From IMG/VR virus record IMGVR_UViG_3300025000_000067, positions 1-64,000 of that record: 64,000 bases of DNA, one strand, 5' to 3'. The notes under the pieces are model-generated. The model worked only from the letters and a program-made list of their open reading frames with translations, was not told where the DNA came from and made no database searches. Positions 4,829-53,178 of the stretch are shown here, piece by piece. Positions within the stretch are counted from its first letter, which is position 1, and each line of letters begins with the position of its first letter. Made by a program: the position numbers and the translations under genes. The DNA is from a virus.

Positions 4829-4931
4829 AGGCTCCTAATATAGGGGTCTTTTCCCATTTTATAACTGTCAGAATAATCAGATAACACCATGAAAAGTATC
4901 TATATAAGAGAAAAAGTAAAAGGGTTTTTTA

Positions 4932-4956
4932 GATTACGTATGAGTTGGTACGTAAT
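4932..4956 (+). repeat. 22-bp dyad site, left arm of pair 1
   Basis: TTACGTA (4934-4940), TGAGTTGG, TACGTAA (4949-4955). The site is itself a palindrome with an asymmetric 8-bp centre that gives it a direction. Confidence 0.85.
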
Positions 4957-5080
4957 TTTCATATGCCATCGGTTTTTCTTTTGTGTTAAATTTTTTTTTT
5001 TTTTTTTTATTTTATGTTTTTAAAAAGTGTTAAAAATATTTTTAAAAGAGACACCCCCTATTTTCTGAAAAGTAATTGCG

Positions 5081-5103
5081 ATTACGTACCAACTCATACG
5101 TAA
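5081..5103 (-). repeat. 22-bp dyad site, right arm of pair 1
   Basis: TTACGTA (5082-5088), CCAACTCA, TACGTAA (5097-5103). It is the exact reverse complement of the site at 4934-4955. Confidence 0.85.
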
Positions 5104-5287
5104 CCTCCAATAGCCCGAATTTTTAATATTATAAATTACTAATGTATACTTCTTTTTGCCTATTCCCATTAAAAATACCTTGCATACTAAGGCTTATAGC
5201 GGTGTATACTAGCTATGAGTGGCTTCGGAAGCCATGCAGGAGGAGGCTATGTCCCCCAAAATAAACTACTAAAGGAGCTGTAAATTT

Positions 5288-11216: not shown

Positions 11217-11717
11217 GTGGGCCGTAGTTATCTAAACAAAGAGGAGAAAAATATTGTTCTGACACTAAGTTCCTTTATAAGCTTTCTAGGCAACCAAACA
11301 ACCAACTGGAAGAAGCTTAAAAGACCAGCTAATCAGCTAAAGTATGCAAAGACAGCCAAAACTTTTTCAGAAAAAGTACTTGGTTTTTTACTGGAGGGTC
11401 TAGATCCACTTGAGGCAGAAAGAATACGAGTAGGCACGAATAGTGTGGAAGTCATTGTAAAGTATACGGATAATGCTATTAGAGCCTACAAAAACATGGA
11501 GAAGCTGGACAGTGTAACACCTATAGAAACAGACCACCTGCTCTATATAGCAGCACAAGCTATTGAGGTGTGCAAAGGGTGCGACTACAACGCTGAAGCT
11601 GTTAAGAAGTGCCCTCTGCGCTTTGTGCTAATTAAGTATGATATTCCAGTACTGGATGAGGATGCCGTGGAAACCTGCCCATACAATGACCAACAATTTA
11701 CAAACTTAACAAAATAA
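11217..11717 (+). CDS. DUF5651-like phage protein (166 aa)
   Basis: The helical N-terminal two thirds are followed by CKGCDYNAEAVKKCPLRFVL and ETCPYN, a spaced Cys pattern that resembles DUF5651 proteins of Bacillota phages. The Cys residues may coordinate zinc. It is the last gene of the helicase unit; a TTGTTCA-type element lies directly after its stop. Family identification is from memory and moderate. Confidence 0.55.
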   Translation: MGRSYLNKEEKNIVLTLSSFISFLGNQTTNWKKLKRPANQLKYAKTAKTFSEKVLGFLLEGLDPLEAERIRVGTNSVEVIVKYTDNAIRAYKNMEKLDSVTPIETDHLLYIAAQAIEVCKGCDYNAEAVKKCPLRFVLIKYDIPVLDEDAVETCPYNDQQFTNLTK

Positions 11718-11719
11718 TT

Positions 11720-11783
11720 TTGTTCATTGTTGGTTGTATTTGTTCATAAAATATGTTAGTATTACATATACTATCAGCATGGA
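11720..11783 (+). promoter_or_regulatory. TTGTTCATTGTTG element and promoter region for the HTH gene
   Basis: TTGTTCATTGTTG (11720-11732) is followed by a second TTGTTCAT (11750-11757) and by TATACTAT near 11768-11775. This is the only intergenic space upstream of the small HTH gene. Confidence 0.5.
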
Positions 11784-11798
11784 AGGAGCGAAGCTCAT

Positions 11799-12053
11799 AT
11801 GGTACTAAAACGACCAGCACCACGACGATGTAGCAAGACTGTAAGCACCGAGCGTATGCTGACCATGCAGGAGGCTATGGACTACTTAACAGACAAAGGA
11901 GTGCCTTGTAAAAGTAGGGCGACGTTCTACCGCATACTTAAGGACTTTGACATCCAGCATGTGAATGTCAACCCGAACGGGAAGAATGCAGTTCGAAGAT
12001 TTCCCCCAGAGAGTTTAGTAGAGATCCTAGAGGCTAAGGGTATCCTTCCGTAA
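11799..12053 (+). CDS. Small HTH (excisionase/MerR-like) DNA-binding protein
   Basis: The 84-aa product carries LTMQEAMDYLTDKGVPCKSRATFYRILKDF, a winged-helix layout like excisionase or MerR-type first helices, then a wing with RRFPPESLVEILEAKG. It should bind DNA specifically. It is followed directly by the structured RNA and tRNA region, so it may regulate that locus or the neighbouring early units. Start ATG 11799 follows AAGGAGCG. Confidence 0.65.
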   Translation: MVLKRPAPRRCSKTVSTERMLTMQEAMDYLTDKGVPCKSRATFYRILKDFDIQHVNVNPNGKNAVRRFPPESLVEILEAKGILP

Positions 12054-12056
12054 TAT

Positions 12057-12161
12057 GACCTGGGTAGCTCAATGGTAGAGCAACGGCCAGAGTGTACACC
12101 TTTTCCTTAGGGGAAAGCTGGTTAAGCGTGTGTTGAGGTTCGATTCCTTGCCTGGGTCCCA
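12057..12161 (+). ncRNA. tRNA-like element with replaced anticodon arm
   Basis: Acceptor ACCTGGG (12058-12064) pairs with CCTGGGT (12151-12157) using two G-U pairs. G12057 can pair with C12158 as in tRNA-His. CCA is encoded at 12159-12161. The D arm is GCTC-AATGGTA-GAGC and the T arm is TGAGG-TTCGATT-CCTTG. Where a 17-nt anticodon arm is expected there is a segment of about 50 nt folding as GGCCAG/CTGGTT around a CTTTTCC-TTAG-GGGAAAG hairpin. No conventional anticodon loop is seen. It could be a decayed tRNA, a tRNA mimic or part of the larger folded RNA here. Confidence 0.55.
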
Positions 12162-12186
12162 AAAAATATAAGTCGTTCAAATTATC

Positions 12187-12260
12187 AGCGGGATAGAGTA
12201 AAGGTAGCTAGTTAGAGAAATCTTCTAGTGAAGAAGGTTCGATTCCTTCACCCGTGCCTA
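12187..12260 (+). ncRNA. Degenerate second tRNA-like element
   Basis: A T arm GAAGG-TTCGATT-CCTTC (12233-12249) is perfect. An anticodon-like arm TTAGA-GAAATCT-TCTAG has a 7-nt loop but lacks U33. The D arm and acceptor each contain mismatches, and CCTA replaces CCA. It looks like a tRNA pseudogene or a tRNA-shaped domain of a larger RNA. Confidence 0.4.
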
Positions 12261-12261
12261 G

Positions 12262-12475
12262 ACTATAAGGGGAGTGAAGCAAAACCATTCCCTCTTATAT
12301 AGATTAAAGGTAATTCTTTAATCCGCTCCTAGTTACCTTATTAGGTCGCTGAGATGGAGTGAGGTAGGATGAGTAACTGAAGTCTGCGTAAAAGAACCGC
12401 TTCCCTCGATGGTTGCAGACAAGGCGATAAGATAATCGCGGGTAAAACTTGTCTACCCATCCTCCCTACCAAATA
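12262..12475 (+). ncRNA. Densely folded noncoding segment with alternative stems
   Basis: Perfect helices include GATTAAAG/CTTTAATC (12302-12323), AGTTAC/GTAACT (12331-12378), GTCTGC/GCAGAC (12382-12420), GACAAG/CTTGTC (12418-12453) with an inner GCGAT/ATCGC, and GGTAG..GATG with CATC..CTACC (12363-12470). GTCTGC/GCAGAC and GACAAG/CTTGTC share three bases and exclude each other, as in switching RNAs. No reading frame is supported. Confidence 0.5.
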
Positions 12476-12476
12476 A

Positions 12477-12552
12477 TGGCGCGTAACTCAGTGGTTAGAG
12501 TGCCGAGCTTATACCTCGGAAGTCGTTGGTTCAAACCCAACTGCGCCAACCA
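12477..12552 (+). tRNA. tRNA-Ile, anticodon UAU
   Basis: All four arms are regular: acceptor TGGCGCG/TGCGCCA, D arm ACTC-AGTGGTTA-GAGT, anticodon arm CCGAG-CTTATAC-CTCGG and T arm GTTGG-TTCAAAC-CCAAC. Discriminator A and CCA are encoded at 12549-12552. Anticodon UAU reads AUA directly. Most bacteria instead read AUA with a lysidine-modified CAU tRNA, so this phage supplies an unusual decoder for a codon its genes use often. Confidence 0.92.
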
Positions 12553-12859
12553 AAAGGTATAAAGTGCCTCTTGTCAGGTACTTTAGATAAAAAACAGAGA
12601 AAGTGCCTTCAACAATCACTTGCTCTAGGGGTAAAGCCATTAGTAACCCCGCTAGGTTCAGCCTAGCAAATGGCATTCTGAATGAATGATATTATAAATG
12701 CTGAAAAGCGTGATTTTAATACGGCTTCAGAATGCCATTTGGTAGGTTGAAATTTTAGCAGCCTGCGAACGTGCAAAGAGAATCAAGTTTCACGCATTGA
12801 GAAACGAGAATTGAGAAATGAGAGAAGAGAGCACGGCAGTATGAAAGGAGCAAATTTCT
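12553..12859 (+). ncRNA. Folded region downstream of the tRNA
   Basis: Helices are AAAGTGCCT/AGGTACTTT (12561-12584, one G-U), GCTAGG/CCTAGC (12651-12667) and a 16-bp perfect stem CAAATGGCATTCTGAA with its complement (12667-12682 with 12726-12741). A purine-rich leader follows before the next gene. No gene is seen until 12860. It may continue the RNA that begins at 12057. Confidence 0.45.
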
Positions 12860-13582
12860 ATGTGTGCATTAAGAGCAACACGCCCAACAGCAGCCCCGGC
12901 AGCGGTAGTAAATCAGATCCCAACTGGTGTAGATCCAGCAGCAGCCCAAGCAGCAGCCCAAGCAGCAGCCCAAGCAGCAGCCCAAGCAGCACCTGACCCT
13001 GTAAATAACACCCCAGTAGTTCAAGGTAGTGGAGCGGTAGCAGTACCGGGGACAGTCCAAGACCTTAACGCCGGAATCCTTGATAACATTGAAGGTATGG
13101 GAAACACCGGAAACTTTGTTACCATGGATGGATCAGATTTTCTGTTCAAAGCAGATAACACAGTAACACAAAGCATTGAGTTAGTCGTTACTTATGGTAA
13201 GCGATACTATCAGTGGGTTGAGGAGCTTCCTGGTGGAGTTAACATTTATCATGACAGCGATGTTAAGCTTGATGATCGATACAAACTCAGGTTTAAAATG
13301 CACTGGTTAGAAGATGGGGCAGAGGCAGGCGACGAGCCTATCGAAATGCAGTTCCACCTACCGACTGCTTCAGCGATGCGCTTCATTGATTATGTAGGTC
13401 AACTGGCCAAGGCTGGTTTCGGAATTGGGAGTGTCGTCACTCAGGCTACCATTAGTCGCCAGATTCAGAACGGAACTACTAACCGTTACAGCCGTGCAGA
13501 GTTTACTATGATTGGCATCGTTAACCCAGATGGAACAACTAATACAGTGAACACGGGGATCACAACGGTTAATAAAAAGTAA
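12860..13582 (+). CDS. Hypothetical replication-module protein with AAAQ repeats (240 aa)
   Basis: The N-terminus is a low-complexity Ala/Pro region with four tandem AAAQ repeats, encoded by a 12-bp DNA repeat near 12938-12992. From about residue 70 a compact beta-rich domain follows (IELVVTYGKRYYQWVEELPG, YKLRFKMHWLEDGAEAG). It is encoded alone, between the RNA locus and the primase-helicase, and has its own terminator. A highly expressed single-strand-binding or accessory replication protein is possible from position and size, but no SSB motif is evident. Confidence 0.55.
   Translation: MCALRATRPTAAPAAVVNQIPTGVDPAAAQAAAQAAAQAAAQAAPDPVNNTPVVQGSGAVAVPGTVQDLNAGILDNIEGMGNTGNFVTMDGSDFLFKADNTVTQSIELVVTYGKRYYQWVEELPGGVNIYHDSDVKLDDRYKLRFKMHWLEDGAEAGDEPIEMQFHLPTASAMRFIDYVGQLAKAGFGIGSVVTQATISRQIQNGTTNRYSRAEFTMIGIVNPDGTTNTVNTGITTVNKK
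12938..12992 (+). repeat. 12-bp in-frame tandem repeat (AAAQ codons)
   Basis: GCAGCAGCCCAA is repeated four times with a partial fifth unit. Confidence 0.85.
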
Positions 13583-13600: not shown

Positions 13601-13632
13601 AAAAGGCCTCTGACTAGTCAGGGGCCTTTACT
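13601..13632 (+). terminator. Terminator
   Basis: AAAGGCCTCTGA pairs with TCAGGGGCCTTT with one G-U, around a short loop. Confidence 0.75.
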
Positions 13633-13654: not shown

Positions 13655-13807
13655 ATGGGCCTAGACTCATCTTTAATTAGCTCTGTATGTAGAACGTACC
13701 GAAAGGACGCTTATACTATTTCGCAGAGGCAGAAGATGATAGACTATCCATTGTCAGGAATCTCAAAGAAAATCAGGGGGAAAGAGTATGGCAAGAGAAG
13801 CTCGTAA
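13655..13807 (+). CDS. Possible small basic protein (50 aa) overlapping the primase start
   Basis: ATG 13655 follows AGGGAAC at ten bases, and the frame MGLDSSLISSVCRTYRKDAY runs to TAA 13805, overlapping the next gene by 20 bases. It is basic and Ser-rich. Overlap and a plausible ribosome binding site support it weakly; it may instead be leader sequence. Confidence 0.3.
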   Translation: MGLDSSLISSVCRTYRKDAYTISQRQKMIDYPLSGISKKIRGKEYGKRSS

Positions 13808-16800
13808 GAAACGAGGTAAAGAAGAGGACAATCTTCTGAACTTCAAGTACGTGGATGTATTTTATCTTAACCCTCAGTCTGGGCAGCGGTCTAAATGGGT
13901 TCGCGTAGAGCAGGGACCCGCTGTAGAAGACTTCAGAAATAAACACGGGAATTACAACGTCTTTGCAACAATTCAAAGCTACCCGAACAGGATCAAGCGT
14001 GAAGGTGGCGGGGAGGAAATGTACGCCCCGCTGTTTTTTGATATCGATAGCTCTTGTTTGCTAGCTAGGGATTGTGCAGCAGACAAAGGTAAAAAGAACA
14101 AACCCGGGCTAATAGACATAGGAGCCTTGAGTAGGCATGATACAGATTCTTTGCAAGTAAGTGGCCTTCTACCTAAGGAACTTATAGCCCATATACTAAA
14201 TAATGACATGGGTATACCCCTATCAGATGAAGTTTGCCAAAAGATCAATGCAGAAGTTGATGCTAATCCGGACCTTAAGCGGTTAGTATGGCTTAAGAAC
14301 TTAGAGCAGAGCAGAATCGACGCTGTAAAAATCATTACTTTCTTTACTGAGCGCTTTGGCCTTACAGAAGATGAAGTTCGGGTGTATTTTAGTGGGTCTA
14401 AAGGGTTTCATATCTTAGTAAATCCCATTGTTTTAGGAATTAAACCAGATAAGAATCTCCATAGGTTTTTCAAGCTCATAGCTATGTACCTAATAACTCA
14501 ACTAGGGCTTAAGAGCCTAGACACGGGGTCTATCTATGGGCATGCTCGTATGCTTAGACTTGTTAACTCGACTCACCACAAGTCAGGCCTGTTTAAAGTT
14601 GAGCTCTACCATAGAGAGCTTAAAGGGGACTTGGAGCGCATTATAACGTTTCTGGCAAAGTCTCCTAGGGATGACTTCTACCCGCCTGACATACAGGAAC
14701 TTCAGTTGAATGATGCAGCTAATGAATGGTACTTAAAGAAGGTTCAAGAGTTCACAGAAGCCCTAAGGATGGAAGAACTATCTGCTACAGGTAGTAAAAG
14801 TGAAGTACTATCTAAAATGGAAAGTGTACCAGCCTGTGTGCAGTTTATTATGGAACGTGGCATTCTGAAGTCTGGGGATCGGAATAAGGCTACCATGGCT
14901 TTAGCTGCTTATGCTAAGGAAGTAGGAACCTCACAGAAAGAGACAGAGCGTACCTTGGTTGCTTGGGTTAAGAAGATACCAGCGTCCATGACATCTAGCT
15001 CATCCTCAGAAGCTGAAGCGTCAACTATATCCTGTGTTAAAACAGTCTACCAAGAGGATAAGTACCGATTTGGATGTGCTTACATTCGAAGTCTGCATGG
15101 TGATAAGTCAGGTAAAGACTACGAGGCTGTCCCTTGTGGTGGACGGAACTGTCCGGCGCATGAGGATCATGCCATAGACGCTGAACCCGCAGAGGAGATG
15201 CATCTTAGCCAGACTTCTAAAGCCGAGTTCACTGGGAAAAAAGTGTCCTTTAGTGCACTAGTAAGTGGTAAACTTGACACTCCATATATTGTACCTAAGA
15301 AGGTCCGGTTTTTATGCAGGAATTTTAAGTACTGTGATAAACCCTGTGTTATGCATGAATACGAAGGAACGTATGACCGAGAGTTCCATGAGAACGAGCG
15401 CTTCTTGATCGAGGCCACAAACCAAAATGACAACAACTTGAAGGGTGTACTTAGGGCCCATAGCGGAGCATCCTGCAATAAGCTGTCTTATGAAGTCCTA
15501 GAACATATCAACGTGTCAGAGCTTTTAGTGGTTCCCATGGCCGACCGGGTGAAGTCGGTTAAAACTTCAGAAGGTCAGTATCAAGATGTTGATGAGTCAG
15601 GCAATGAGTATGTAACCAGAAAGATGTATGCCATAGGTAATGACATCCAGGCAAATAGCCATTACCAAATTGAGGGCTATGTGTACAGCCATCCCCGTAA
15701 TGCTATGGCGACGATTCTTAGTCAAAAGCATGAACCTATGGAAGACAGTATTTCTAGTTTTGAGTTAACCGATGAAGTTAAAAAGTCCTTTGGGGTTTTT
15801 CAAGTTCAACAAGGTGAGACTTTGGATGACCGAATATCCTTTATTGTTGATGACTTAGTTGATAACGTAACCTTGGTGCGTGAAAGGTTCGCTCCTCATC
15901 TAGCTATACTAATGGTGTACCACAGCTGTCTGCACTACTACTTCCAAGGTAGTCTAGAGAAACGTGGCTGGATGGAGACTGTATTTGTTGGAGATAGTGG
16001 AATGGCCAAAACACAGATGGTGAATAACATCATGGAATTCTGTGGACTTGGAAACACAGCATCCGGTGAAGGAACAAGCCGTACTGGGTTAGTATACCGC
16101 TTAGAACAGCTTGGGGAGCGCTGGTTTATTACATGGGGTAAGTATCCTTTGTCTGATCGGAAGCTTATTGCTATTGATGAATTCTCAGAACTGGATCCTG
16201 AAGACTTCGGGAAAATTACAGAAGCCCGAACCACTGGGGTCTTAAGAGTAGACCGAACCGTGAACACTGAAACAAATGCCCGGGTTCGTCTGATACTCTT
16301 AACTAACCCAGTAAGAACGATGACCTTATCCAGATATACCCATGGAGTTGAGTCACTTCGCCCCCTTTTTGCTACCCCTGCAGATATCCGTCGTTTGGAC
16401 TTAGCAGTCTTTCTTCAATCCGGTGACGTTTCTAAATCAGTCCTTAATGCAGAGTACCCGGCTCCCGCAACTCAGGCAGTGTCTTCAGAAGCTCTCCGTA
16501 ACTCAATCTTATGGGCATGGAGCAGGAAACCACAGGATATTACCATTGGAAAACCAACAATGAAAAAGATTCTACAAAGGGCTGATGACCTAGCTACAAA
16601 GTACGGGGATGCTCAGGATATTCCCCTTATGGAGCCCGCCGACCTTCGAAAAAAGCTAGCCCGTATGTCCATAGCCTTAGCCTCCTTAGTTCATAGTACT
16701 GATGAAACACATGAGAAGATCATTGTACTCCCAGAGCATGTAGAGTACGTTGTGGACTTCCTAAGCGTTGTTTACGATGACAGAAACTGCCGTTTGGACC

Positions 16801-17093
16801 TTTACAGCGCTAAGTCAAAAGAGGAGTCGGACTTAACCGATGCAGAACGTGCTGAGGTAAAGAAGGCCTTGGAAGATTTAGACTTTGCTGACCATGCCTT
16901 AGCCTCTGCAGAACTTATTGATCTGTTCCGTAGAAATGACGTTCTGAAGCCCAATGAGATTGTGGATATGTTAGGATTTGAGAGGGCTCAAGTGAATACT
17001 CGTTTGGCCATCTTAACCAAGCATAGTATGATCAAGCGCACCCGAGACGGACTTAGAAAGTTACCGAAGTTTATAGAGTATTTGTTATTGTAA
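13788..17093 (+). CDS. AEP primase fused to MCM-like AAA+ helicase
   Basis: The 1101-aa protein combines priming and unwinding. The N-terminal archaeo-eukaryotic primase shows the metal motif FFDIDSS near 85, YFSGSKGFHILVNP near 202 and RMLRLVNSTHHKSG near 258. A zinc-binding stretch with FGCAYIRSLHGD and CGGRNCPAHEDH lies near 425-465. The C-terminal half is MCM-like: Walker A GDSGMAKT near 735, Walker B IAIDEFSELDPEDF near 795, then EARTTGVLRVDRT and the sensor region ARVRLILLTNPVR. A winged-helix end follows. AEP-MCM fusions are known in mobile elements of Bacillus. It is followed by the DNA polymerase module. Confidence 0.88.
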   Translation: MAREARKKRGKEEDNLLNFKYVDVFYLNPQSGQRSKWVRVEQGPAVEDFRNKHGNYNVFATIQSYPNRIKREGGGEEMYAPLFFDIDSSCLLARDCAADKGKKNKPGLIDIGALSRHDTDSLQVSGLLPKELIAHILNNDMGIPLSDEVCQKINAEVDANPDLKRLVWLKNLEQSRIDAVKIITFFTERFGLTEDEVRVYFSGSKGFHILVNPIVLGIKPDKNLHRFFKLIAMYLITQLGLKSLDTGSIYGHARMLRLVNSTHHKSGLFKVELYHRELKGDLERIITFLAKSPRDDFYPPDIQELQLNDAANEWYLKKVQEFTEALRMEELSATGSKSEVLSKMESVPACVQFIMERGILKSGDRNKATMALAAYAKEVGTSQKETERTLVAWVKKIPASMTSSSSSEAEASTISCVKTVYQEDKYRFGCAYIRSLHGDKSGKDYEAVPCGGRNCPAHEDHAIDAEPAEEMHLSQTSKAEFTGKKVSFSALVSGKLDTPYIVPKKVRFLCRNFKYCDKPCVMHEYEGTYDREFHENERFLIEATNQNDNNLKGVLRAHSGASCNKLSYEVLEHINVSELLVVPMADRVKSVKTSEGQYQDVDESGNEYVTRKMYAIGNDIQANSHYQIEGYVYSHPRNAMATILSQKHEPMEDSISSFELTDEVKKSFGVFQVQQGETLDDRISFIVDDLVDNVTLVRERFAPHLAILMVYHSCLHYYFQGSLEKRGWMETVFVGDSGMAKTQMVNNIMEFCGLGNTASGEGTSRTGLVYRLEQLGERWFITWGKYPLSDRKLIAIDEFSELDPEDFGKITEARTTGVLRVDRTVNTETNARVRLILLTNPVRTMTLSRYTHGVESLRPLFATPADIRRLDLAVFLQSGDVSKSVLNAEYPAPATQAVSSEALRNSILWAWSRKPQDITIGKPTMKKILQRADDLATKYGDAQDIPLMEPADLRKKLARMSIALASLVHSTDETHEKIIVLPEHVEYVVDFLSVVYDDRNCRLDLYSAKSKEESDLTDAERAEVKKALEDLDFADHALASAELIDLFRRNDVLKPNEIVDMLGFERAQVNTRLAILTKHSMIKRTRDGLRKLPKFIEYLLL

Positions 17094-18656: not shown

Positions 18657-18846
18657 GATTATGATTCGTAATTCATTTGACATTGTTCAGCTAGACCTTG
18701 ATAAGGAGAAAAGGGAGATTAGGCTTAACCTACCCTTAGACGTTTTAAACCTAGTAGATAAAGTAGTTGTTACTGTGTTTAAAGACAAAGTAATGGGTGA
18801 GACTATGCTTAGTCGTGATGGTGAGAAAAAGCCATGGGAAGTTTAA
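18646..18846 (+). CDS. Hypothetical protein (66 aa)
   Basis: GTG 18646 follows GGAAGGGGTG and overlaps the preceding gene. The product is a short alternating strand/helix protein (FDIVQLDLDKEKREIRLNL). Its 3' end overlaps the DNA polymerase start by 13 bases, implying translational coupling. Confidence 0.5.
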   Translation: MDDEIMIRNSFDIVQLDLDKEKREIRLNLPLDVLNLVDKVVVTVFKDKVMGETMLSRDGEKKPWEV

Positions 18847-21473
18847 CGCAGCTAAAGAAACGTCTTGAGAGTCAGAAAGCTGGCAGACCAACTCCTACAG
18901 AAGAGGATAAAGTAACAGGAGTCCTGCAAAAGCAGACTCCTGTGGCGTTGAATTCACCACCGAGTACAATTATAACCCCAGAGGCTGTAAAGGCCCCTAG
19001 CAGGCTGATTATACCTAGAGCTAGTCGATTACCACATGGGGTCACTATTCTAAATGATGAGTTGCCTATGGGGTACCACGCTTTAGGTAAAAATGATGTC
19101 AGTAGACTTATGAAGCTTAAAGAGGAAATTATCAAAGCAGGTGTCTGTGCTTTTGACTATGAATCAGATGGTGATCCGGACGATGAGGCCCAAGACCCTC
19201 AGGATCACAAACTTGTCAGTGTATCACTCGCTTATCAAATTGGTCAGGCATTTTGCACTCCAATAGCACATGATTTCTATGCTGCCAATTGGGATAAGGA
19301 TTGGTTCATTGATAACTTCCTGAAGCCAGTGTTAGAGCACCCAGAGGTCCTTATCATAGCCCACAACGTTAAGATGGAGCATGGTATGAGCATATGCCTA
19401 GGCATTGACATGTTTGAGAAGGCCTGTAATGGGAAGGCCTGTAATGGGAAGGTCATGGATACTATGATCATGCTTAAGGCTTTAGCTCTTCCAGAAACAA
19501 TGGTTCAACGTGGGGAGGATTGGGACGTTCAACTAGGACTTAAGCCTGCTACAAAGGCACTTCTAGCCGATGCAAATGGCTGGGTCCATGGGTTACTGCA
19601 CATCGGCCAGATTAAGAGCTTTGAGGAAACCGTGGGGAGAATTGAGTGGGAAGAACCAATACCCGGGGAGTTCTATAAGTCAGGTGCCAAGAAAGGTCTT
19701 CCGAAGACAAAGAAGATGAGTAGGAGCAGAACCTTTAATGAACTACCAGTGGATCAAGAGACAATTGATTATGGCTGTTCTGACAGTGACTGGGCACTTG
19801 GACTTTATTACAAGCTTCTTCCTATGTGTCATTCAGAAGGTGTCTATGATGTCATTGTTGAGCTCGATGTCCCTCGGATGATGGTCCTTGCAGAATATGA
19901 ACTAGCCGGGTGGCAGATCAATCCTGAAGAGCTTAAGAAGCTCGGGTACATTGCAGATAAAGCCTTAGCTGAGTTGGCACCTCTCCTGCAGGAAGGCCTT
20001 TTAGAGGTAACGAAAGGATACGCTGATACTGATGGGGATGGAAATGTCTTGGTCCCTGTAGGAACATACCCTATGGGTAAATGGCGAAAGGATCCCGTCT
20101 CTTTAACGATTAAGAACGCTAGGCCTTTTAGCTGGGGGAGCACCCAACATATGCAGTGGTTATTCTTTCATGTTTTACAGGTCCCTTTTGGGGATGTAGA
20201 AAGGTCTAAAAAGACCGGACTTCCTAGCATGGGAGAGGTTAGTTTAGATAGTCTTCTTGAGGTGTATACCAGCAGTGGTGGGAATAAGTTCATGGATGTC
20301 CTTAAGGAAAAACGTAAGTATGACAAAATTAAGAGTACTTATGTTGGCAAGTGGAATGAAGACACACAGGAGTATACAACTGGAATGCTTCAGTTCTGTC
20401 GGGAGGACACCCACAAGGTTCACACGAATCTTAGGCTAGTTAGTACTTGGAGACTAGCCAGTAAACGCCCAAATTTGCAAAATATTCCCAGACCCGAGAA
20501 CGACCCCATGGGTATACGTGGGGTGTTTGAGGCTCCAACATATGACCTGACTGTAGACTATGGGCTATTTAATCCACTTACTAAACCTGTGCACTTTATT
20601 TTTAAGGATAATCTCTCAGGCATTACAGTATGGGTCGGCGCGGATTATGCCCAAATTGAGTTAAAAGTGCTTGCTGTTTACACCGGCGAAGAGTCTATGA
20701 TTAGGACTTTAGTTAATGGTGGGGATATTCACTCAAGTACAGCCATTGATGTCTTTAACCTAAACTGTACTGAAGCACAGGTAAAAGAGCTTTATAAGCC
20801 TTTTAGGTATCGAGCGAAGGCTGTGAACTTCGGTTTGGTATATGGTCTTACAGAGTATGGATTAGCTAAAGACCCTGGAATGGGTATGACTGTGGACCAA
20901 GCTAAGGTATTTGTTGAGCAGTATATGCAACGGTATCCTGGTGTAAGAGCCTACATGCATGGAATGATAGCCTTTGCCCGTAAGCATGGATATGTAGAAA
21001 CAATGTTTAAGCACAGAAGGGCTCTCCCACGTATCAATCACCCAAACAAGTGGGTACGTCAGTCTGAGGAGAACAAGGCCATTAATACACCCGTGCAGGG
21101 CACCGCTGCAGACATCATGGGGCTGGCCATGGTAAACGTTCGAAAAGATGCTCCTAAGTGGTTAAAGCCTGTCATACAAATCCATGATGAGCTCATGTGT
21201 GAGTGTCCAATTGAGTATGCAGTTGAGGGATCTATTATCCTTAAAGAGATCATGGAGCGGGAGATCGAAGGTTTCTCTGAGGTCATGCCTTTACTGGCTG
21301 AGCCTTCAGTAGGTAAGATATGGCGACATGCTTTAGACATCAAGTGGGATGACAGAGGAACACCCTATGTAAAGCCTAAACGGGAGCGAAAAGAGCTATC
21401 TGATGTAACGTTAGGTGACATTGAGTACATGATGCCATTGTATAAAATGGCTGGAATTGAGGTGCACGTTTAA
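18834..21473 (+). CDS. Family A DNA polymerase with 3'-5' exonuclease
   Basis: The 879-aa replicative polymerase contains exonuclease motifs VCAFDYESDG (ExoI, near 105), IIAHNVKMEHGM (ExoII, near 177) and DYGCSDSDWALG (ExoIII, near 310). The polymerase domain has motif A GADYAQIELKVL near 603, motif B RYRAKAVNFGLVYG near 660 and motif C IQIHDELMCE near 780. It lacks a 5' nuclease domain, as usual for phage PolA. A 15-bp tandem duplication near 19430-19450 encodes NGKACNGKAC in the exonuclease domain. It acts with the upstream AEP-MCM protein. Confidence 0.95.
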   Translation: MGSLTQLKKRLESQKAGRPTPTEEDKVTGVLQKQTPVALNSPPSTIITPEAVKAPSRLIIPRASRLPHGVTILNDELPMGYHALGKNDVSRLMKLKEEIIKAGVCAFDYESDGDPDDEAQDPQDHKLVSVSLAYQIGQAFCTPIAHDFYAANWDKDWFIDNFLKPVLEHPEVLIIAHNVKMEHGMSICLGIDMFEKACNGKACNGKVMDTMIMLKALALPETMVQRGEDWDVQLGLKPATKALLADANGWVHGLLHIGQIKSFEETVGRIEWEEPIPGEFYKSGAKKGLPKTKKMSRSRTFNELPVDQETIDYGCSDSDWALGLYYKLLPMCHSEGVYDVIVELDVPRMMVLAEYELAGWQINPEELKKLGYIADKALAELAPLLQEGLLEVTKGYADTDGDGNVLVPVGTYPMGKWRKDPVSLTIKNARPFSWGSTQHMQWLFFHVLQVPFGDVERSKKTGLPSMGEVSLDSLLEVYTSSGGNKFMDVLKEKRKYDKIKSTYVGKWNEDTQEYTTGMLQFCREDTHKVHTNLRLVSTWRLASKRPNLQNIPRPENDPMGIRGVFEAPTYDLTVDYGLFNPLTKPVHFIFKDNLSGITVWVGADYAQIELKVLAVYTGEESMIRTLVNGGDIHSSTAIDVFNLNCTEAQVKELYKPFRYRAKAVNFGLVYGLTEYGLAKDPGMGMTVDQAKVFVEQYMQRYPGVRAYMHGMIAFARKHGYVETMFKHRRALPRINHPNKWVRQSEENKAINTPVQGTAADIMGLAMVNVRKDAPKWLKPVIQIHDELMCECPIEYAVEGSIILKEIMEREIEGFSEVMPLLAEPSVGKIWRHALDIKWDDRGTPYVKPKRERKELSDVTLGDIEYMMPLYKMAGIEVHV

Positions 21474-52321: not shown

Positions 52322-52797
52322 ATACCCGCTCAATGCCCTCTCATATATGCCTTTGACGAATGTTACATAATAAGCATATGTAACATTCAGGTTTAAGTGG
52401 GGGGTGCTCCTATACTCCTAGATGCCTCCTATAAATGGGCTAAAAATCCATGACAGAATACTCTGACAGGGTTTATGCAGTCGAGTGCATAATTATGCAT
52501 AGGTGTTTTCTTGCAATTCTTAGGAGCCTATAGTATAGTATAGGGATTTTTAAAATGGGGTGTTTTCATGTGAAAAGGAAAAATGTTACAAGTAGCTGTA
52601 ACCCTTGGTATCGCTGGGTTTGGGCATTTATTACAAAAGTATCCATGTAAAAAATTAGGATATTTTTAAGATGGGGTGAGAGGCTCAGAGAATTGGACTA
52701 ATGGTCTGACTATTGGTAAGACGAAATTGTAAATAAATGGAGCCAAAAATGGGGGCAAAATGAGGCCTTTTTGCCTTTTTGAAAAAAATTTTCTCGA

Positions 52798-52819
52798 TTA
52801 CGTACGAGTTGGTAAGTAA
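52798..52819 (+). repeat. 22-bp dyad site, left arm of pair 2
   Basis: TTACGTA-CGAGTTGG-TAAGTAA, preceded by TTTTCTCGA. It differs from the 4934 site at two positions. Confidence 0.85.
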
Positions 52820-52969
52820 TTATTAAAGACACAAAGAAAAAAGGGGTCTATAAAAAAAAAAAATGGTTTTTGTACCAATACTGCAAATTTGTTCATAGTT
52901 GTTCATAAAAAAGTGCACAAAAAAATAAAAAAAAAATTTGCAAAAAATAAAACGCTTGGCACCTGATAA

Positions 52970-52991
52970 TTACGTATCAACTCGTACGTAA
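52970..52991 (-). repeat. 22-bp dyad site, right arm of pair 2
   Basis: TTACGTA-TCAACTCG-TACGTAA, followed by TCGAGAAAA. With the left arm it forms an inverted repeat of about 32 bp with two mismatches. Confidence 0.85.
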
Positions 52992-53178
52992 TCGAGAAAA
53001 CCTTGAAAACAGTTAAAATGACCTATTTTTGAAATATATTTTAAAAATGTAGTGTATAAAGTGCATAAAAATTCATAAGAAAACGACAAAGGAAATAAGT
53101 ACTTTAAGGATGAAAAAATAGTTTTATTTATATTAGGTTTATTTTTTATTTCTTCTTATATATGTATTTTAAAATTGT

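Follow-up and report, generated by a model that had tools for sequence, protein, structure and literature searches.

The noncoding interval between an HTH gene and the replication genes of this phage carries in its 3' part a long-stem element, which is kept by compensatory changes across a clade of related phages. The locus as a whole is read here as composite, a tRNA cassette inserted 5' of a conserved long-stem leader element of the replication operon, although this reading could about as well be wrong as right. The window, i.e. the whole stretch of 64,000 nucleotides that was analysed, comes from a virus record of 102,131 bp. No ORF of at least 60 aa lies within positions 12057–12760, and the following features can be distinguished in this interval and its surroundings.

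11799–12053, + strand: HTH gene, 84 aa, weak match to HTH_17; 5' border of the noncoding interval
12058–12161, + strand: tRNA-like 1, Rfam RF00005 at 37.1 bits; body 12058–12158, CCA 12159–12161
about 12187–12262, + strand: tRNA-like 2, read from the sequence, degenerate
12263–12476, + strand: folded spacer, 214 nt, fold z-score −4.5, helices above shuffles
12477–12552, + strand: tRNA-Ile, anticodon UAU (reads AUA), ARAGORN, Rfam 66.6 bits
12625–12650, + strand: short hairpin CTAGGGGT...ACCCC, just 5' of the long stem
12657–12751, + strand: conserved long-stem element, arms 12657–12682 and 12726–12751, 43-nt core
12752–12859, + strand: leader with ribosome-binding site (AAAGGAG), purine-rich and weakly structured, between hairpin and start codon
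12860–13582, + strand: gene for a 240-aa protein, possibly single-strand-DNA-binding; first gene 3' of the long-stem element
13788–17093: primase/MCM helicase gene, next after the 240-aa gene
18834–21473: family A DNA polymerase, downstream of the primase/MCM helicase

Among annotated phages, the nearest is Bacillus phage vB_BboS-125 (Elmenteitavirus), with a primase about 39% identical, and the HTH gene has orthologues of 47–55% identity in seven relatives. Another record, IMGVR_UViG_3300001041_000046, is identical to the window over 12,720 bp and therefore offers no variation to compare; host genomes searched with two proteins yielded no relative. The 240-aa protein belongs to an orthologue family with a variable, Ala/Pro/Gln-rich N-terminus and a conserved C-terminal domain, which is unmatched in Pfam and PDB. 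Its AlphaFold model has a pLDDT of 48 and its Foldseek matches are not significant, but several SSBs are among these weak matches; the protein is possibly SSB-like. Directly 3' of its gene a palindromic hairpin, AAAGGCCTCTGACTAGTCAGGGGCCTTT (13602–13629), is followed by a weak T-run and is likely a terminator.

Conservation of the long-stem element

In the window, the arms of the element form a 26-nt inverted repeat of 92% complementarity, the inner part of which is a 16-bp stem (12667–12682 with 12726–12741) that had been described in an earlier note on this DNA and proved to be real. A G.G mismatch (12666/12742) follows directly after CTA. The fold z-score amounts to −9.0 for positions 12625–12760 and to −8.3 for 12553–12760.

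Relatives were collected by protein-guided scans of viral contigs and constitute a clade in which gene order is shared (L008, with L009 of the same phage type; L011/L015; L019/L020/L021; L022; L026, identical to contig L016; L027; L028). Every one of them possesses a counterpart of the element, giving nine elements in eight distinct phages including the window. Orientation and the two flanking genes are the same in all eight phages; the order HTH gene, element, 240-aa protein is found in L008, L011, L019, L022, L026, L027 and L028, with primase/MCM coming next where this was checked. The stretch between the HTH and the 240-aa genes measures 143–482 nt in the relatives and contains a long hairpin, the element starting 0–33 nt past the HTH stop codon and ending about 60–110 nt before the start codon. 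Only this 3' hairpin is kept in the relatives; any tRNA or tRNA-like part is absent. The span between the anchors used below ranges from 33 to 203 nt and the fold of the core is also variable: in the window the core is a weak loop of 43 nt, in L019 it has 16 nt, and in L028 (7522–8003) two tandem long-stem elements with different cores are situated upstream of the 240-aa orthologue. The Elmenteitavirus group (L010, L012–L014) is devoid of the element, with about 20 nt from the HTH gene to the next gene where both could be read, and hence the element was gained or lost during the evolution of the lineage.

Since the arms were anchored by eye on CTAG (5') and GTAG (3') and chosen to pair, pairing alone is a biased measure, and the 14–18 of 18 pairs formed by the anchored stems of the nine elements have to be read accordingly. 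The G.G mismatch occupies the same position in seven of the nine elements and is replaced by G-C in the other two. For the analysis of covariation the arms were joined by a neutral linker, and because L022 is partly misaligned the resulting count is conservative. Over 17 pairs, 88.7% of the cells are paired versus 70.7% in shuffles, and sliding the partner by 1–3 columns leaves 30–50%. The earlier note had pointed to compensatory changes in homologues, and for the 3' hairpin these are present, with double-sided changes in 13 of the 17 pairs and a covariation score of 0.544 compared to 0.204 ± 0.031; on every measure, none of 500 shuffles reached the observed covariation. Swapping arms between phages reduces pairing from 15.9 to 11.4 of 18, a difference for which none of 100,000 permutations reached the observed value. 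The swap across phages, in combination with the fixed genomic place, is stronger evidence than pairing alone.

Matches to known families are restricted to tRNA, and no Rfam family covers the long-stem element in the window or in the relatives; weak hits to miRNA, RatA and similar models were dismissed as long-stem look-alikes. An intrinsic terminator at 12657–12751 was likewise rejected, as none is predicted there on the + strand and none of the copies has a T-run after the stem. Outside the clade, a pattern scan with the 5' arm returned 31 matches, all attributed to chance and none with a partner arm that convinces. The 3' part of the interval represents an element of a tailed-phage clade which was undescribed before and is absent from Rfam. 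It combines clear covariation, a near-invariant mismatch, a fast-changing core and a constant position ahead of the replication genes, and is directly testable in any cultured member of the clade.

Possible role in the replication operon

The constant location 60–110 nt before the first start codon of the replication cluster, along the direction of transcription, argues for a role in cis on the operon message. The element could act on the operon transcript as a processing site or as a protein-bound leader. A protein might bind its hairpin, or a double-strand RNase (RNase III type) might cut it, and either event would then determine the 5' end, the stability or the translation of the mRNA encoding the downstream protein. 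In the window phage, processing of the hairpin might in addition release the upstream tRNA precursor. The wide variation of the core (33 to 203 nt between anchors) is, however, odd for a simple regulatory leader, and the conservation of CTAG/GTAG goes beyond what an RNase III site would require, which counts against this explanation.

RNase III processing hairpins occur in phage operons, those of the T7 early region being the type example. The present element resembles them in its long intercistronic stem, its internal mismatch and its position on the operon strand, but differs in the conserved CTAG/GTAG and in the large folded core of some members. In the leader of T4 gene 32, autogenous control is exerted through a pseudoknot. 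Here, too, a structured element precedes a replication gene, possibly that of an SSB, and is followed by a weakly structured leader, and a putative pseudoknot occurs in two members; unlike the T4 leader, the element has a 17–28-bp stem with a variable core, and the downstream protein is an SSB only putatively.

Two other roles for an RNA were weighed. The first, which we regard as unlikely, is that of a new family of phage RNAs, whose terminal stem, constant and marked by the conserved G.G mismatch, would display a folded and hypervariable core; cut out of the replication-operon transcript, such an RNA would work in trans or as an autoregulatory receptor of the downstream replication protein. 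The second is a trans-acting structured ncRNA (for instance a decoy, a counter-defence or a structural RNA), likewise released from the operon transcript by excision, in which the terminal stem stays constant and the core evolves rapidly. The closure of the whole element by the terminal stem, cores that diverge fast and fold well, and the tandem duplication in L028 are in line with such an RNA, but it is made improbable by cores too small for a scaffold (the weak 43-nt loop of the window, 16 nt in L019) and by the same gene always lying downstream.

Selection on RNA or on DNA

An RNA helix should tolerate G.U more than A.C. The core stem contains 5 G.U versus 8 A.C, and the longer, noisier stems 12 G.U versus 21 A.C; since G.U does not exceed A.C, there is no sign of selection on a + strand RNA over selection on DNA. 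A minor but appreciable likelihood is given to the inverted repeat working as DNA, in the form of a cruciform or single-strand hairpin for the primase/MCM or HTH protein and serving as origin, priming site or paired operator. Besides the A.C mismatches, which are not rarer than G.U, the sequence conservation of CTAG/GTAG, the HTH gene upstream and the adjoining primase/MCM and possibly SSB-like genes agree with this, whereas the GC-skew shows no change at 12.6 kb and a stronger origin-like site is found elsewhere, in the inverted TACGTAYNAGTTGGTANGTA pairs at 4.9 and 52.8 kb.

A further argument against action as DNA comes from the cores of L008 and L028b, which look like folded RNA with retained loop strings. 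Both contain CGCAAA, CTAGGGGT and TAAAGGC in inferred loops, and stem P3 is rewritten between them from ATATGA/TCATAT to ACGAA/TTCGT, while identity between the neighbouring proteins is only 55%. By this comparison the two cores are inferred to share a pseudoknotted fold through ACCCC/GGGGT. In the window, CTAGGGGT (12625) and ACCCC (12646) form an ordinary hairpin; that it is a remnant of an L008/L028b-type core would be a guess.

The TACGTAYNAGTTGGTANGTA 20-mers occur as inverted copies flanking AT-rich intergenic segments at 4922–5115 and 52789–53000 (four sites versus 0.01 expected). Related pairs are present in the relative G006 and degenerate copies in G001, G002, G003 and G005, and none is found in the Elmenteitavirus group. 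These sites are candidate origin, partition or operator sites.

The tRNA cassette

The module of about 570 nt (approximately 12054–12624) placed between the HTH gene and the long-stem element consists of one good tRNA-Ile(UAU), two degenerate tRNA bodies and a folded spacer. The tRNA-Ile named in the earlier note was confirmed at 12477–12552, with a cloverleaf comprising a 7-nt anticodon loop and T and D arms. It fits the genome, because 29% of the Ile codons in the window ORFs are ATA, and would supply the decoding of AUA codons. An Rfam match to Plastid-ycf2 on the minus strand (12477–12550, 45.1 bits at a gathering score of 65.7) is the tRNA read backwards.

Both of the tRNA-like parts reported earlier could be recovered as well, tRNA-like 1 through its Rfam match and tRNA-like 2 by reading the sequence. 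The score of tRNA-like 1 exceeds the tRNA gathering score, and its acceptor (ACCTGGG/CCTGGGT), D-arm, T-arm, discriminator C and encoded CCA can be assigned. Its anticodon limb, read by eye, has 41 extra nucleotides with an inner hairpin (CTTTTCC-TTAG-GGGAAAG); a recognisable 7-nt anticodon loop is absent and ARAGORN makes no call there. In tRNA-like 2, a T-arm (GAAGG-TTCGATT-CCTTC) is accompanied by an acceptor that, by eye, is rough and weak and by a possible anticodon arm (TTAGA-GAAATCT-TCTAG) lacking U33; its fold z-score is −0.4, and Rfam gives no match even at E ≤ 10. A 14-nt stretch of the T-arm, AGGTTCGATTCCTT, is identical at 12136–12149 and 12235–12248, suggesting that the two parts derive from each other or from a common tRNA.

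No homologues of the module were found in phages, plasmids or the relatives, pattern scans of viral contigs yielded nothing beyond the identical contig and matches due to chance, and Rfam and ARAGORN detected no tRNA in 11 related records. Among the phages seen, the module is thus specific to the window phage and its identical contig. The 5' part, in which one tRNA body is unusual, illustrates how a tRNA cassette enters the junction between HTH and replication genes.

The degeneracy of tRNA-like 1 and 2 and the spacer without homologue would suit a tRNA array in ordinary decay, its hairpins being incidental and the 3' inverted repeat the remnant of a mobile element. In view of the covariation of the 3' stem and its fixed position in eight phages, this is scarcely credible for the interval as a whole; for the 5' half alone, a decaying tRNA array is quite possible. 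Phage tRNA arrays can carry odd stable RNAs, such as RNA C and RNA D of T4. The cassette resembles these in that a tRNA gene is flanked by stable-looking non-tRNA folds, but only one of its tRNAs is intact, and in one tRNA body the anticodon limb is enlarged.

Comparison with large phage RNAs and folding of the interval

GOLLD and ROOL have been described as phage and prophage RNAs often found near tRNA islands, and the GOLLD linker is reported to contain tRNAs in some instances (PMC12286853), so that, in principle, a larger RNA could enclose a tRNA. The earlier note had described ornate noncoding RNA of about 700 nt around the tRNA-Ile and had left membership in either family open. That the interval is noncoding and structured holds, and its tRNA neighbourhood and helices above chance speak for one continuous GOLLD/ROOL-like RNA; nevertheless, such an RNA is very unlikely, since the relatives show the two halves to be separable, processing of the tRNA-Ile would cut the transcript at 12477 and 12552, and Rfam provides no match. 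The GOLLD model (RF02032) has no hit at E ≤ 10 in 11700–12900 and none in the whole records. The ROOL model (RF03087) has no hit at E ≤ 10 in 11700–12900, and a second search was negative too, with its control genomes likewise unmatched. Assembly into a homo-oligomeric RNA cage is a further hallmark of both families. Like these families, the locus is phage-encoded, large, structured and close to a tRNA; unlike them, its conserved part is a long-stem hairpin of about 100 nt, its relatives lack tRNAs and no conserved core of 400–600 nt was seen.

The at least six perfect helices counted previously are exceeded: between 12057 and 12760 there are 11 of at least 6 bp with loops of up to 30 nt, as compared to 3.8 ± 1.9 in dinucleotide shuffles (maximum 8). 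With loops of up to 60 nt, 16 are found versus 7.7 in shuffles (maximum 14), and about half of the listed short helices are consequently expected by chance. The structures of the spacer and the tRNA-like parts rest on single-sequence folding, by which the spacer is predicted to form hairpins at 12264–12299 and 12302–12323 and a junction with three arms, closed by GGTAGGATG (12363–12371) and CATCC..CCTACC (12458–12470). Both helices of a pair that had been described as mutually exclusive, GTCTGC (12382)/GCAGAC (12415) and GACAAG (12418)/CTTGTC (12448), exist in the spacer and share GAC at 12418–12420, an overlap of GCAGAC and GACAAG which would allow alternative pairing.
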